DNA from: a virus
Strand: one strand, 5' to 3'
IMG/VR virus record: IMGVR_UViG_3300032289_001361
Span: 1 to 23,355 of that record
DNA: 23,355 bases
Shown here: piece after piece, positions 364 through 19,177 of the stretch
How the letters are laid out: the number at the start of each line of letters is the position of its first letter
Numbering within the stretch: the first letter of the stretch is position 1
The notes under the pieces: generated by a model
The model's database searches: none
What the model was told of the DNA's origin: nothing
The model's input: only the letters and a program-made list of their open reading frames with translations
Translations under genes and position numbers: made by a program

Positions 364-444
364 CATCCTTGCTGTATTTTGGATAATCAGTTTTCCCAGC
401 AGCCCTGTGACCACCCACCCCCATTGACATCCTTGCTGTATTTT
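364..444. repeat. 17-bp direct repeat pair
   Basis: The sequence CATCCTTGCTGTATTTT is present exactly at 364-380 and at 428-444, 64 bases apart. The pair lies between the 32-bp array and the sigma-54-like sites. Its function is unknown; an integrase arm site or an activator site upstream of int are both possible. Confidence 0.7.
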
Positions 445-460
445 TAGAAATCCAAAGCAG

Positions 461-477
461 TTGGCACGGTTCCTGCT
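461..477 (+). promoter_or_regulatory. Sigma-54-like promoter, upstream copy (one mismatch)
   Basis: TTGGCACGGTTCCTGCT matches the sigma-54 consensus YTGGCACGrNNNTTGCW except for C instead of T at 473. It is part of an 18-bp direct repeat (460-477 and 489-506) that differs at one base. If active, transcription would start near 488. Confidence 0.4.
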
Positions 478-489
478 GGTAGAAAAATG

Positions 490-506
490 TTGGCACGGTT
501 CTTGCT
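490..506 (+). promoter_or_regulatory. Consensus sigma-54 (RpoN) promoter upstream of int
   Basis: TTGGCACGGTTCTTGCT fits every fixed position of the -24/-12 consensus YTGGCACGrNNNTTGCW, with GG at 492-493 and GC at 504-505. The predicted start is near 517, giving a leader of about 64 bases to the integrase ATG at 581. Sigma-54 promoters need an upstream-bound AAA+ activator; the 32-bp array 150-250 bp upstream lies at a suitable distance. The match is seen in the sequence; activity is inferred. Confidence 0.6.
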
Positions 507-580
507 CAAAATACAAAAAAGATTTTTTAAAAAAGTTCTTGTCATTTTTCCCCAGCGGAATTACCTTTTCACTGTTACAA

Positions 581-1630
581 ATGAGCACCATTAACATCCG
601 ATCCAATGGGAGTTTCCTCGTCTCCGTTCATCAGAACAACAAACGAGTTCGTCGCACCTTCAAGACAAGACACGAAGCTGAATTGTTTCTGGCTGAATCT
701 CAGGTCAGGTCATTGAAAGGTAACGTCAATGTTCTAGACGTTCTTTCTTCCGAAGCACCAAAGAATCTTGGTGAGCTACGCAGTCGGGTTCTGTCAAACC
801 TGTGGAAAGGAACATCAGGTGAAAAAACAGTCTCTACCAATAGCCAAAGCGTTATTGATTTTTTCGGTAGCGATACATCGCTGGAAGCTGAAAGTTTCTC
901 AGCCCAAAAGATTGACCAGTTCATTGAGTTTTTGAAACAGAAAGGCAACGCCAAAGGAACCATCAATCTGAAGCTGTCAGCTTTGAATCGGATGCTTTCC
1001 TACGCACGGCAACGGAATTGGATAAACATTAGTCCTAAAATCCGTGGCTTGAAGCAGGACAAAGGACGTATTCGCTTCCTGTCTCAACTAGAAGAAAGCA
1101 AGTTGATTGATAAAACCAATGAGCTTGGTCGCCCCGACTACGCAGTTCTATGGCTTTTCTTGGTCGATACCGGAGCACGAGTGGGTGAAGCGTTGAATCT
1201 CAAATGGGAAGACGTTCGGTTTGTCGGTAATGAGAACCAACGTAATGAGGTTATTTTCTGGGACACCAAAAACGGAGAGTTCCGAACCGTCCCTATGACA
1301 AGCAGGGTTGCCGTTGCCATGCAGGAGCGGAAAAACAGCGGACATGAACGACCCTTCAACATGAAACAATCTCTGGTCAACTACGTTTGGCAGTTGATTA
1401 AAAAGTCCAACCCTGAATGGGCAGCAGACAAAGAGTTTGTCCCACATACCTTGCGTCATACCTGTGCCTCTAGGTTGGTTCAACGTGGGATTCCTCTCTA
1501 CACGGTGATGAATTTCTTGGGCCATAAAGACCTTCACATGACCACACGGTATTCCCACCTTACTTCAGCTAACTTTGGAGACGCTGTAGCGGCTCTGGAA
1601 CAAACAACAACACCTAATACAAATGAATAA
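581..1630 (+). CDS. int: Tyrosine site-specific integrase
   Basis: This 349-residue protein would catalyse integration of the phage genome into, and excision from, the host chromosome. The N-terminal part (about 1-130) resembles arm- and core-binding domains; a SAM-like core-binding segment lies near 100-160. The catalytic set is complete: Arg200 (in GARVGEALNLKW), Lys230, His289 and Arg292 (HTLRH), His315 (LGHKD) and the nucleophile Tyr324 (RYSHL). The reading frame is open back to a TTG at 461, but that extension runs through the sigma-54-like sites and has no family resemblance, so the ATG at 581 is preferred. Its last codons overlap the next small gene by 8 bases. Standing upstream of the RNA polymerase gene is the usual place for integrases in marine T7-like phages. 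The att site was not identified. Confidence 0.93.
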   Translation: MSTINIRSNGSFLVSVHQNNKRVRRTFKTRHEAELFLAESQVRSLKGNVNVLDVLSSEAPKNLGELRSRVLSNLWKGTSGEKTVSTNSQSVIDFFGSDTSLEAESFSAQKIDQFIEFLKQKGNAKGTINLKLSALNRMLSYARQRNWINISPKIRGLKQDKGRIRFLSQLEESKLIDKTNELGRPDYAVLWLFLVDTGARVGEALNLKWEDVRFVGNENQRNEVIFWDTKNGEFRTVPMTSRVAVAMQERKNSGHERPFNMKQSLVNYVWQLIKKSNPEWAADKEFVPHTLRHTCASRLVQRGIPLYTVMNFLGHKDLHMTTRYSHLTSANFGDAVAALEQTTTPNTNE

Positions 1631-3264: not shown

Positions 3265-3698
3265 ATAGCACCTCCGCACCCCGACCTGATTGGGATACAT
3301 GGTTCATGGGCCTTGCCGTGGCTGTGGCTTCCCGAAGCGAAGACCCCCACCAAAAGGTAGGGTGTGTGGCTGTGCGTCAAGACTTATCGATTGTCGGTGT
3401 TGGATACAATGGGGTTCCTTCTGGTGTTGAAATAGATTGGTCTAACAGAGATGCCAGAAGACCCATTGTTATCCATGCCGAAGCCAATGCTTTGCGCTAT
3501 GCCAAGCCTAATGAAGTAATGGCTCTGTATGTGACCCTGCTTCCTTGTCCATCCTGCCTGACCCTCATAGCTTCTTACAGAATACCTGTAGTTCGCTGTA
3601 TGTGTCCTAACGATAGGTCGGATGAAATACCCAATGCCCTCCATATAGCTCAATCTCTGGGCATCAAACTCAATATCAGTATGCCCAACAATGGATGA
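3261..3698 (+). CDS. dCMP deaminase (deoxycytidylate deaminase family)
   Basis: The 145-residue protein belongs to the zinc-dependent cytidine/deoxycytidylate deaminase superfamily, which converts dCMP to dUMP as a precursor for dTMP. The zinc site is clear: His72 and the proton-shuttling Glu74 in IHAEANAL, and Cys96 and Cys99 in PCPSC. The N-terminal part has the usual substrate-side segment SRSEDPHQKVGCVAV followed by GYNGVPSG. Length is typical for phage dCMP deaminases. It overlaps the zinc-ribbon gene by four bases and the RNA polymerase gene by eight, so it is probably co-translated with them. No thymidylate synthase is visible in the window. Confidence 0.9.
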   Translation: MNSTSAPRPDWDTWFMGLAVAVASRSEDPHQKVGCVAVRQDLSIVGVGYNGVPSGVEIDWSNRDARRPIVIHAEANALRYAKPNEVMALYVTLLPCPSCLTLIASYRIPVVRCMCPNDRSDEIPNALHIAQSLGIKLNISMPNNG

Positions 3699-6114
3699 CC
3701 AACTAACCCTTGAGAAAAGCCAGATTGAAGAAGGTAAATTGCGTTACCACAAGAGGGCTAACAACCTTTCCAAAATGGGGCAGACATCTGAAACCTATTG
3801 GGGAAGGAATCTTCTAAAACAAGCTTTACCAAACTATATCACCGGATTGAGCCAGTGGTTCCAATCCAACGAGAAGTTCCGTGCTGGTAATATTGCTTAT
3901 TTCCACGAAGTCAGAAAAGTCCTGTCAGTTGAGGAAATAGCTGAAACAGCCATACAAGAGATTATCAATTCTCTAACTACAGGTGAGGGATTAAACAGGG
4001 TATGCCTACTGGTGGGACACGCTATTGAGTTCCGCTACGTGATGAAGCAAGCCAGCAAAAGTATCTCAAGTAGGGAGTGGAACGACATTATCAAAAACTT
4101 TGTCAATACCCACCATTCTCTATCACACAAACAGGATTCTTTGCGGGATATTGTCACAGCAAAAGGGTTTGGCTTCTCATTCGACACAAAGCAAAGGCTG
4201 GTGATCGGTAACTGCCTTGTTCAGTTGTTTAAATCCAGCACCGGATTGATTGAGTTCATATTATTACGTAGTCCAAACTTTAGGATGAAGACCCACGTTG
4301 TCCTAGCCGAAGAAGCTAAACAATGGATTGAAAAGATGGACGAGCATTGTGAGATAATGAATCCAGTTCGTTATCCGATGGTAGCCCCTCCTGACGAATG
4401 GCAACCGTTTCAGCTTTACTCTGGAGGATACAAGCTACCAGAAAACAAGCTTCCGCTTATCAAGTCTCATCACCGTTTACACCATAGCGTTCCCCGCAAC
4501 AATCCCATGAGAACCGCTATAGAAGCAATCAATGGGCTTCAAAAAGTGCCTTGGAAGGTGAACACACAAGTTCTGGAAGTGGTTGATAAATACTTTTCCG
4601 AGAAGCGGAGTATCAATGACATCCTCCCTTTCCACGGTCTTTTAGACCTACCTCCAAAGCCGCACGACATGGAGACAAACGAAAACGCTCGCAAATATTG
4701 GAGAAGACAAGCCAACAATGTTTACCGATCCAACTACGAGAATAAGACCAGATTTTTCCTAATTGCCAAAACAATCCACATCGCCCGTATGCTTAAAGGA
4801 CACAAGAAACTTTGGTTCCCAATGCAGTTGGATTTCCGAGGACGTATGTATTACTCAACCGAGTGCTTGCATCCACAAGGAAGTGACCTTGCTCGCAGTC
4901 TACTTACGTTCGGTGAGTCAAAGCCGCTCAAAACTGAAGAAGATTTCAACTGGTTCTTCATCAATGGAGCCAACAAGTTTGGTATGGACAAAGAAAGCTT
5001 TGAAGTCCGGTTACAATGGGTAAAGGACAATTCTGACAGCATCAAAAGAAGTGCCGAAGACCCTTATTCGGAAACGTGGTGGACAAGTGCCGACAAGCCT
5101 TGGCAGTTCCTAGCGTGGTGTTTTGAGTATTGGAGATTTCACACACGGACAACCGAAGACTTTGAAACCAACCTTCCTTGCGGGATTGACTCTACCAACA
5201 ACGGATTGCAAATCCTTTCCCTACTCAGTCGTGACAAAACCGTAGCCGTGTTGACTAACGTGTTGAATCCTTCCAAAAAAGCTGGGCCAAACGACATCTA
5301 CCGGACAGTCCTTAATCGGGTAATCTCAAGGCTACAGGAAACCAACGATGAGCTTTCCAAAAAACTACTGCAAAGCGGTTTGGTCAGACGTTCTGTGATT
5401 AAAGTTCCAGTGATGGCTATGCCTTACGGAATCAAACCTCAAGGCACACTGGAAGCCATTGATTCGGAGTTCAAACGCATTAGCTTCAATGAGCCGAAAA
5501 CTTATGACATCTTACCGGATAACCTACGAAGGAGTGCCGCTTTGCTGTTGGGTAATGTCATACGCGAGGTAATGGGTGATCTTCTGCATGGCCCCAAACA
5601 AGTCATGGAATGGTTGAAAGAAACTACCAAGAAAGTTTCCAGCCAAAACGTGTTTGTCCAGTGGCTAACTCCCAGCGGTTTTAGGGTTGTGTGTGCTTAT
5701 CCCAAAACTGAAATACAGTCGTTTAACTTTTCGGTAGAACGTAAAATGGTGAACCGATCCTTCATGGTTGAAGATGATTCAAAAGTCAGTTCACGCACTA
5801 CGATTAACTCAATCTGTGCCAACTTTGTTCACAGTCTGGATGCTTCCGTAGCCCAAATCGTTTCACAAAAAGCCTCTCAGCTTGGTATATCCTTGGGGGT
5901 TATTCACGATTGCTATGCCACCCACCCCAGCGATGTTCAAGTCATAATCTCCTTGGTGCGAGACACTTACGCCGATATGTTTTCCAGCAATCTTCTGGAA
6001 GATTTCCGTAAGCAGTTGTCATGCCAAGTAGCCAAAAACAAACCAGAAAAAATTTTCAGCATTGGAGATTTTCCCATTGACCAAGTGCGTCAATCTGAAT
6101 ACTTTCTCTGCTGA
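3691..6114 (+). CDS. gp1: Single-subunit DNA-dependent RNA polymerase (T7 gp1-like)
   Basis: This 807-residue enzyme transcribes phage genes from phage-specific promoters. Catalytic motifs of the T7 family are present: motif A with Asp500 (GIDSTNNGLQ), motif B with Lys571 and Tyr579 (KVPVMAMPYG, same eight-residue spacing as T7 Lys631 and Tyr639), and motif C with His739-Asp740 (VIHDCYATH). It is shorter than T7 RNAP (883 aa), and the A-to-B spacing is about 23 residues shorter. The C-terminus is EYFLC rather than the FAFA end of T7. The start overlaps the dCMP deaminase stop by eight bases. The promoter it recognises cannot be read from the protein, and I saw no repeated T7-like promoter in the intergenic regions. 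Confidence 0.96.
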   Translation: MDDQLTLEKSQIEEGKLRYHKRANNLSKMGQTSETYWGRNLLKQALPNYITGLSQWFQSNEKFRAGNIAYFHEVRKVLSVEEIAETAIQEIINSLTTGEGLNRVCLLVGHAIEFRYVMKQASKSISSREWNDIIKNFVNTHHSLSHKQDSLRDIVTAKGFGFSFDTKQRLVIGNCLVQLFKSSTGLIEFILLRSPNFRMKTHVVLAEEAKQWIEKMDEHCEIMNPVRYPMVAPPDEWQPFQLYSGGYKLPENKLPLIKSHHRLHHSVPRNNPMRTAIEAINGLQKVPWKVNTQVLEVVDKYFSEKRSINDILPFHGLLDLPPKPHDMETNENARKYWRRQANNVYRSNYENKTRFFLIAKTIHIARMLKGHKKLWFPMQLDFRGRMYYSTECLHPQGSDLARSLLTFGESKPLKTEEDFNWFFINGANKFGMDKESFEVRLQWVKDNSDSIKRSAEDPYSETWWTSADKPWQFLAWCFEYWRFHTRTTEDFETNLPCGIDSTNNGLQILSLLSRDKTVAVLTNVLNPSKKAGPNDIYRTVLNRVISRLQETNDELSKKLLQSGLVRRSVIKVPVMAMPYGIKPQGTLEAIDSEFKRISFNEPKTYDILPDNLRRSAALLLGNVIREVMGDLLHGPKQVMEWLKETTKKVSSQNVFVQWLTPSGFRVVCAYPKTEIQSFNFSVERKMVNRSFMVEDDSKVSSRTTINSICANFVHSLDASVAQIVSQKASQLGISLGVIHDCYATHPSDVQVIISLVRDTYADMFSSNLLEDFRKQLSCQVAKNKPEKIFSIGDFPIDQVRQSEYFLC

Positions 6115-10809: not shown

Positions 10810-11157
10810 ATGAGCATAAAAGACACCGATCTAGCTTACATCGCTGGATACATTGACGGAGAAGGCTGTATTAGATGGGGAGGATACAGCCCAAGAATAA
10901 GCCTACAAAGTTGTAATCCTAACCCCCTGAAGTTTGTTCAAAACTTTTTTCCCTATTCTCAGGTTCGTATGCAAAGTAGAAGAACCAAACGAAACAAGCC
11001 TGTGCATAGGCTGGAATACAATGGGATAAATACCATTAACCTCCTAAATGCAGTTGCCCCATACCTCATAGAAAAGAAAGACCAAGCTGAAAAACTGATT
11101 CAAATTTATCAACTAAAACAAGAGCTAAAAGAAGCCAAACAACGTAAACACAAATGA
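10810..11157 (+). CDS. LAGLIDADG-type homing endonuclease, free-standing
   Basis: The 115-residue protein has one LAGLIDADG-type motif at residues 8-20 (LAYIAGYIDGEGC); the Asp and Glu of IDGEG are the metal-binding acidic pair. Single-motif enzymes act as homodimers on near-palindromic targets. The remainder (SLQSCNPNPLKF, basic QSRRTKRNK, and a Lys-rich helical tail) fits the usual DNA-contacting strands and closing helices. It starts one base after the polymerase stop and overlaps the exonuclease start by four bases (ATGA). No intron or intein is visible around it, so it is a free-standing mobile gene inserted between gp5 and gp6 without disturbing either. Its recognition site is unknown. 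Confidence 0.85.
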   Translation: MSIKDTDLAYIAGYIDGEGCIRWGGYSPRISLQSCNPNPLKFVQNFFPYSQVRMQSRRTKRNKPVHRLEYNGINTINLLNAVAPYLIEKKDQAEKLIQIYQLKQELKEAKQRKHK

Positions 11158-17922: not shown

Positions 17923-18102
17923 ATTCTTTGTTGACAAAACAATTCTCATAACTTAAAAGCAATTTAACCGAAAAAATACATAAGGAGAATAGAAGACTCT
18001 CTGACCCCTTGCGAGGGATAATCTTGGGAAATCACTCTGACGTAAATGATCGGAAAACCAAAACCAAAAACTAACAACTAACATAGAAAGAAATAAAATA
18101 CT
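17923..18102 (+). promoter_or_regulatory. 180-base leader of the capsid gene
   Basis: This gap contains the promoter-like element, a small hairpin with a UNCG-type loop (CCCT TGCG AGGG, 18006-18017), two CTCTGAC motifs, and a final 45 bases almost free of G and rich in A and C, which should be unstructured next to the ATG. AAGGAG at 17983-17988 looks like a Shine-Dalgarno but is over 100 bases from the start. The layout suggests a purpose-built high-expression leader that does not depend on Shine-Dalgarno pairing. Confidence 0.5.
17931..17959 (+). promoter_or_regulatory. Candidate sigma-70-type promoter before the capsid gene
   Basis: TTGACA at 17931-17936, a 17-base spacer and TAAAAG at 17954-17959 give a full -35 and a 4/6 -10 match, with a start near 17966. 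It lies at the head of the only long gap in the virion module and would boost coat protein expression. In an unknown host, or if the phage polymerase drives late genes, the match may be accidental. Confidence 0.35.
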
Positions 18103-19069: not shown

Positions 19070-19127
19070 GGGGTGTCCCAAGATTTAATACGGTTTTTGC
19101 TCATTTTACCGTGTTCTGGGACACCCC
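19070..19127 (+). terminator. Compound hairpin after the capsid gene, T-phi position
   Basis: GGGGTGTCCCA (19070-19080) pairs perfectly over 11 bp with TGGGACACCCC (19117-19127). Inside, AATACGGT (19087-19094) pairs with ACCGTGTT (19108-19115) over 8 bp with one G:U. It lies 8 bases after the coat stop, where T7 has terminator T-phi. It is followed by TCCC and A7, not a U-run, so a phage-polymerase terminator, an mRNA-stabilising element or a processing site are all possible. Confidence 0.7.
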
Positions 19128-19177
19128 TCCCAAAAAAATTGTTTGAAAATGAGTCTTAACTAGCTCTTAATACTTCC

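Follow-up and report, generated by a model that had tools for sequence, protein, structure and literature searches.

The window analysed here, 23.4 kb long, is an uncultured virus record from a T7-like phage. It encodes a tyrosine recombinase (integrase, int; 349 aa, 581..1630, + strand; phrog_1, E=1.1e-57; PF00589, E=7.3e-25) and, further downstream, a T7-like single-subunit RNA polymerase (807 aa, 3691..6114, + strand; phrog_414, E=6.6e-192). Other genes in the window encode a ssDNA-binding protein, a primase-helicase, a DNA polymerase, a portal and a major head protein. These gene matches agree with the original prediction of a T7-like phage, and int lies upstream of the RNA polymerase gene. 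The nearest proteins among named phages were too distant for host assignment (about 30% for the RNA polymerase). Immediately downstream of the DNA polymerase gene, a 115-aa ORF (10810-11157) looks like a homing endonuclease of the LAGLIDADG type (AGYIDGEGC). A sigma-70-like TTGACA-17-TAAAAG element lies ahead of the major head gene (17931-17959), and a GGGGTGTCCCA...TGGGACACCCC hairpin 3' of the same gene (19070-19130) is a likely terminator.

Non-coding DNA of 580 bp precedes int and contains several repeats. Among them are two sigma-54-type -24/-12 sites, both on the + strand, located 74 bp upstream of the integrase ATG in the same orientation as int. Scored against the consensus YTGGCACGRNNNTTGCW, site 2 (490..506; TTGGCACGGTTCTTGCT) had no mismatches, with its GG at 492-493 and its GC at 504-505. 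Site 1 (461..477; TTGGCACGGTTCCTGCT) starts 29 bp upstream and had one mismatch, a C replacing the first T of TTGC. The sites thus carry the correctly spaced -24 GG and -12 GC that define a sigma-54 promoter. This confirmed the original prediction that 490-506 matches the RpoN consensus at all fixed positions and has a near-copy 29 bases upstream differing by one base. The accompanying claim, that the window holds no comparable site elsewhere, also held: there were only three weaker sites, at 6011 (-), 7272 (+) and 16340 (+), each with two mismatches.

The number of sites in the window with two or fewer mismatches was five, compared with 0.73 in dinucleotide shuffles. Markov-simulated windows of the same composition (n=400) contained on average 0.0 exact sites and 0.07 sites at one or fewer mismatches, and a pair within 60 bp occurred in 0 of the 400. 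A lone perfect match can nevertheless be due to chance, as an exact sigma-54 consensus lies antisense within the RNA polymerase gene of the relative L047 (5737-5753, - strand) and also in L095 and L096, which is not so in the window. The weight of the evidence is therefore the tandem arrangement together with its conservation, not one perfect match. Two other properties of the region were considered and rejected. Single-strand folding of 455-545 was not unusual (z = 0.77), and neither the 17-mer nor the AT-rich block that follows it recurs in the window's other gaps, as promoters of the phage RNA polymerase would.

The pair is present in L025, a near-identical contig of the same species, and in two further lineages, L047 and L048/L051, whose integrases are 70-72% identical to that of the window. 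In both of these lineages the site starts are 28 bp apart. The spacer between the sites (478..489, + strand; GGTAGAAAAATG) is conserved and one base shorter in the relatives, with 11/11 aligned bases identical in all lineage pairs. Substitutions between lineages inside the 17-mers are limited to two positions, R (G/A) and the first T of TTGC (C/T), both of which the consensus tolerates. L048 and L051 match the consensus perfectly at their first site. Loss of the GG or GC elements in homologues would have spoken against the original prediction; both were kept in all three lineages. Downstream of site 2, an AT-rich block of about 36 bp (507..541, + strand; 3' end GTTCTTG) is about 90% identical (32-33/36 across lineages), whilst the flanks are only 50-65% identical and the stretch from block to ATG is poorly conserved (21-24/37). 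Because the spacer and the downstream block are conserved as well as the sites, the conserved unit exceeds two bare -24/-12 elements. The block could be an initial transcribed region, bendable DNA or a -35 region. Three further scans of the collection for more distant clade members yielded the same lineages only, and no prophage carrying the clade's block turned up when 85,000 species genomes were scanned for exact matches. In the L048/L051 lineage, the pre-int non-coding region is preceded by a gene resembling class-II glutamine amidotransferases (L048:486-1406, L287:342-1262).

One explanation of this arrangement is a plain tandem sigma-54-dependent int promoter, activated by a host enhancer-binding protein and biasing the phage toward lysogeny. 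Two co-directional near-consensus sites kept 28-29 bp apart in three lineages, 74 bp from the ATG, are what such a promoter would look like, and int follows the pair immediately in every clade member holding the region. Provided that site 2 is a promoter, transcription is predicted to start near 517, some 12 bp past the -12 element and within the conserved downstream block. The start of promoter 1, however, would coincide with the beginning of site 2. Neither a phage activator nor, upstream of the pair, a palindromic activator site was recognised.

The region also contains candidate integrase-binding sequences. A direct repeat, CATCCTTGCTGTATTTT, occurs as box A (364..380, + strand) and box B (428..444, + strand; 16 bp before site 1). 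Both copies are kept in three lineages, and the distance between them is greater in L047. The boxes are not palindromic and are candidate arm-type sites of the integrase or activator sites. Further upstream are CTCGCTTCGCTCG repeats with TATGTTGTTGATC (70-195), also found in L048 and L051, and four tandem 32-bp units of GGCGATTTTAATTTTGCAGTTTCAGGTTGGCC (212-344), two of them identical. The site pair might therefore itself consist of arm-type attP sites, or sites of another phage regulator, with only an incidental likeness to sigma-54 promoters: it adjoins int amid boxes A and B, with which it shares a YCYTGCT core, and conservation is also very high over the first 30 codons of int. A tRNA/attP core was rejected, no tRNA being found in the window. 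The evidence from other phages described below runs against the arm-type explanation, since the full 17-mer, including GGCACG, recurs in phages with no detected integrase.

Comparison with known temperate T7-like phages raises a further alternative. LUZ100, HTVC019P, Bordetella BB8 and Rhizobium RHEph21 resemble the window phage in combining a single-subunit RNA polymerase with an upstream int, and the DNA polymerases of the window and LUZ100 are about 50% identical. LUZ100 and similar phages differ in that int is preceded by a MarR-like gene and, in some of them, by a tRNA. The window has neither, with no MarR-like ORF in the 580 bp upstream of int, and carries the sigma-54-type pair instead. 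Near int, 8 temperate T7-like phages of the LUZ100 kind had no site at two or fewer mismatches, and the absence of the sites from such distant phages counts against a sigma-54-dependent int promoter. In LUZ100, MarR and int are transcribed from a sigma-70-like host promoter (PMC10134795). By analogy with this host-specific promoter, int in the window clade might be expressed from a gene-adjacent sigma-70-type promoter (TTGnnn, 16 nt, TAGACT in L047 and L048), with the sigma-54 sites acting as a roadblock or modulator. GTTCTTG (535-541) is conserved and TAGACT is found in two of the three lineages. The window's own -10 is poor, however, simple scans gave no match there and conservation is poor from the block to the ATG, making this explanation improbable.

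Tandem sigma-54-type sites were not confined to the window's clade. Two sites 6-24 bp apart were found in at least 119 viral stretches, mostly unrelated to the window's phage, and three sites in a row in 96, whilst the reversed triple pattern gave 0 stretches in the same viral collection. Among 85,000 species genomes of bacteria and archaea there was a single triple array; the numbers compared are raw counts and yield no exact density ratio. That one case (Virgisporangium) is a 25-bp unit duplicated in tandem almost without change, its spacers near-identical and TTGCC replacing TTGCW, in a genome with no detected Sigma54_DBD match and no TTGGCAYGNNNNTTGCW site. In total, 181 array loci fell into 66 groups of viral contigs, set by nucleotide similarity, so that some may yet be distant relatives. 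Arrays range from 2 to about 17 sites with a usual step of 26-28 bp, commonly 26 or 28 bp, and the loci bearing them carry podovirus-like, T7-like and other packaging and replication genes. Among 43 whole array records, which were chosen one per group where possible and may be fragments, the motif had 197 matches compared with 3 for the reversed control. Tandem arrays of near-consensus sigma-54 sites in long non-coding DNA form a phage-specific class, of which the window pair is a small, integrase-linked member.

Among the largest arrays were those of the uncultured phage contigs L291 (9549-10720; 17 sites), L290 (9199-9478; 11 sites, at a nearly strict 26-27 bp step), L292 (9205-9494; 10 sites) and L289 (2-238; 8 sites). 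The L234 contig (G047:16890-17008) differs from these direct arrays in geometry, with alternating forward and reverse sites forming head-on pairs 17 bp apart that repeat every 43 bp. No named phage with a full array was found. Roseobacter phages CRP-901/902 and MW202675, terminase relatives of array phages, had no sites in the parts read. Scattered sigma-54-type sites with 1-2 mismatches occur on both strands, mostly in gene-poor stretches, of the cultured large Vibrio phages pVp-1 (L286), VPT02 (L300) and Thalassa (L284) and the Pseudomonas phage SYP (L299), and in T5-like Vibrio phages some of them lie near the pre-early A2/A1 genes. These cultured phages might serve as test systems. A search mostly limited to the open-licence literature found no description of sigma-54 site arrays in phages, and their novelty is for that reason provisional.

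We also examined which positions vary among copies that the search pattern had not picked, defined as sites with two or fewer mismatches within 500 bp of arrays. There were 176 such copies, against about 4 expected in shuffled sequence. None of the 176 had a mismatch at G2, G3 (0-based; the -24 GG), T13 or G14 (the -12 TG), and mismatches were rare at the C, the A and the last C of the two elements. Mismatches were located instead at Y, at the terminal C and G of TGGCACG, at the first T of TTGC and at W, and the R position (position 8) was a purine in 128/176 copies. Such tolerance, which the search did not impose, is that of sigma-54 sites. Spacers between neighbouring copies were only 51% identical, indicating that the motif is maintained and not merely duplicated. 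This excess of unselected copies, together with the shuffles, simulated windows and reversed-pattern controls, rules out a chance origin of the pair. Judged by their base pattern, the sites are very probably recognised by sigma-54. Variation of this kind, and the finding that TTCTTGC-like bases are commonest in all groups and not peculiar to the window's clade, both argue against integrase arm-type sites.

The genes around the arrays were examined for signs of promoter function. By simple gene calls, which are crude near arrays, the gene following the array ran in the same direction in 29 of 46 groups and in the opposite direction in 17, an orientation bias that is weak at best. Five loci were inspected closely. 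Those of L291, L292 and L172 run against the next gene, L290 is co-directional and the L289 array points off the contig end, away from its genes. In L172, which is T7-like, the array is flanked by the terminase gene and the early genes, all of which are encoded on the other strand. Several arrays face away from genes, so that simple promoter activity does not account for every array, whilst for many it is possible. No activator motif was found in the array loci, the window included, and a Sigma54_activat domain was detected in 0 of the 43 array records, which may be fragments. The activator is possibly supplied by the host.

Tyrosine recombinase (PF00589) was encoded by only 3 of the 43 array records, indicating that arrays in general are not integrase devices. 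One of the three represents the window's clade; in the others the integrase lies several kilobases from the array. With 40/43 records lacking a PF00589 match (again, some may be fragments), the motif is not tied to integrase-bearing elements, and we consider it improbable that the pair represents arm-type sites. The original prediction that sigma-54 promoters drive the integrase thus stands in part: the sites are sigma-54-like, tandem and conserved, but the element occurs in 65 other groups, mostly without integrase. The same element in dozens of phage groups without integrase, sometimes facing no gene, also weighs against explaining the window pair as an int promoter and nothing else, and we hold that explanation to be possible but tentative. 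Similarly, a link between lysogeny and host physiology through sigma-54 is one possibility and not the default, given that these arrays mostly occur without integrase and often face no gene.

The reading we favour, whilst giving it somewhat less than even chances, is that the sites are genuine sigma-54 holoenzyme sites, that the class probably captures sigma-54 and that the window pair possibly also drives int. The holoenzyme forms a stable closed complex that awaits an AAA+ activator (PMC7057263), and its affinity for promoter DNA is reported to be about 3 nM (PMC7064336). Host sigma-54 RNA polymerase holoenzyme would accordingly be expected to bind both sites of the window, and array sites would hold it as a stable closed complex, an activator being needed only for transcription to start. 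The sigma-54 pool is small, about a hundred molecules in E. coli. Because the factor is scarce and the affinity high, a phage carrying several sites per genome could, as it replicates, occupy much of it, and many phage genome copies would draw it off host promoters, including those of stress responses to infection. Sigma-54 transcribes stress-induced genes, also upon phage infection (PMC7064336), which makes a motive for capture plausible. In the window clade, the same bound polymerase may also transcribe int when a host activator is active.

Several features of the window sit less easily with capture. The pair faces int at the usual promoter distance, two sites per genome make a weak sponge, and the conserved block reaches past both sites, which a pure decoy would not need. 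Many site copies kept despite diverged spacers, as in a decoy array, characterise the class, whilst the window itself has only two. A role of the window pair as int promoter is consequently nearly as likely as capture, and both could hold together. In its widest form, in which many unrelated phages carry sigma-54 sponges that mute the host and the window clade has placed its own in the int control region, linking free sigma-54 to the lysis-lysogeny decision, we think the capture reading rather unlikely.

Known systems offer partial parallels to the arrays. Bacterial sigma-54 (RpoN) -24/-12 promoters share the GG and GC elements, their spacing and the tolerated variation, but the phage sites are tandem and tightly spaced, with no activator gene found and often no gene downstream. 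Nucleic-acid decoys likewise hold several high-affinity copies of one factor's site, and some of the arrays are apparently geneless. Non-canonical factor sites have been suggested to act as decoys, which is also listed as a possible role for intragenic sigma-54 sites (PMC4591121). The arrays differ from known decoys in lying on phage genomes and being aimed at a sigma factor. T7 Ocr is also a phage means of lowering sigma-54 (and sigma-70) transcription (PMC7064336). Ocr, however, is a protein that mimics DNA and competes with sigma, whereas in the arrays genuine DNA sites would be competing for the holoenzyme.

The feature is readily found by pattern and can be tested on plasmids in E. coli. 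If the arrays titrate sigma-54, they would silence an entire host regulon without any protein, through promoter elements carried on the phage genome, and would represent a new kind of host-takeover device. If they are promoters instead, dozens of phage groups would be wired to the nitrogen and stress state of the cell, and in the window clade host physiology would feed directly into lysogeny.
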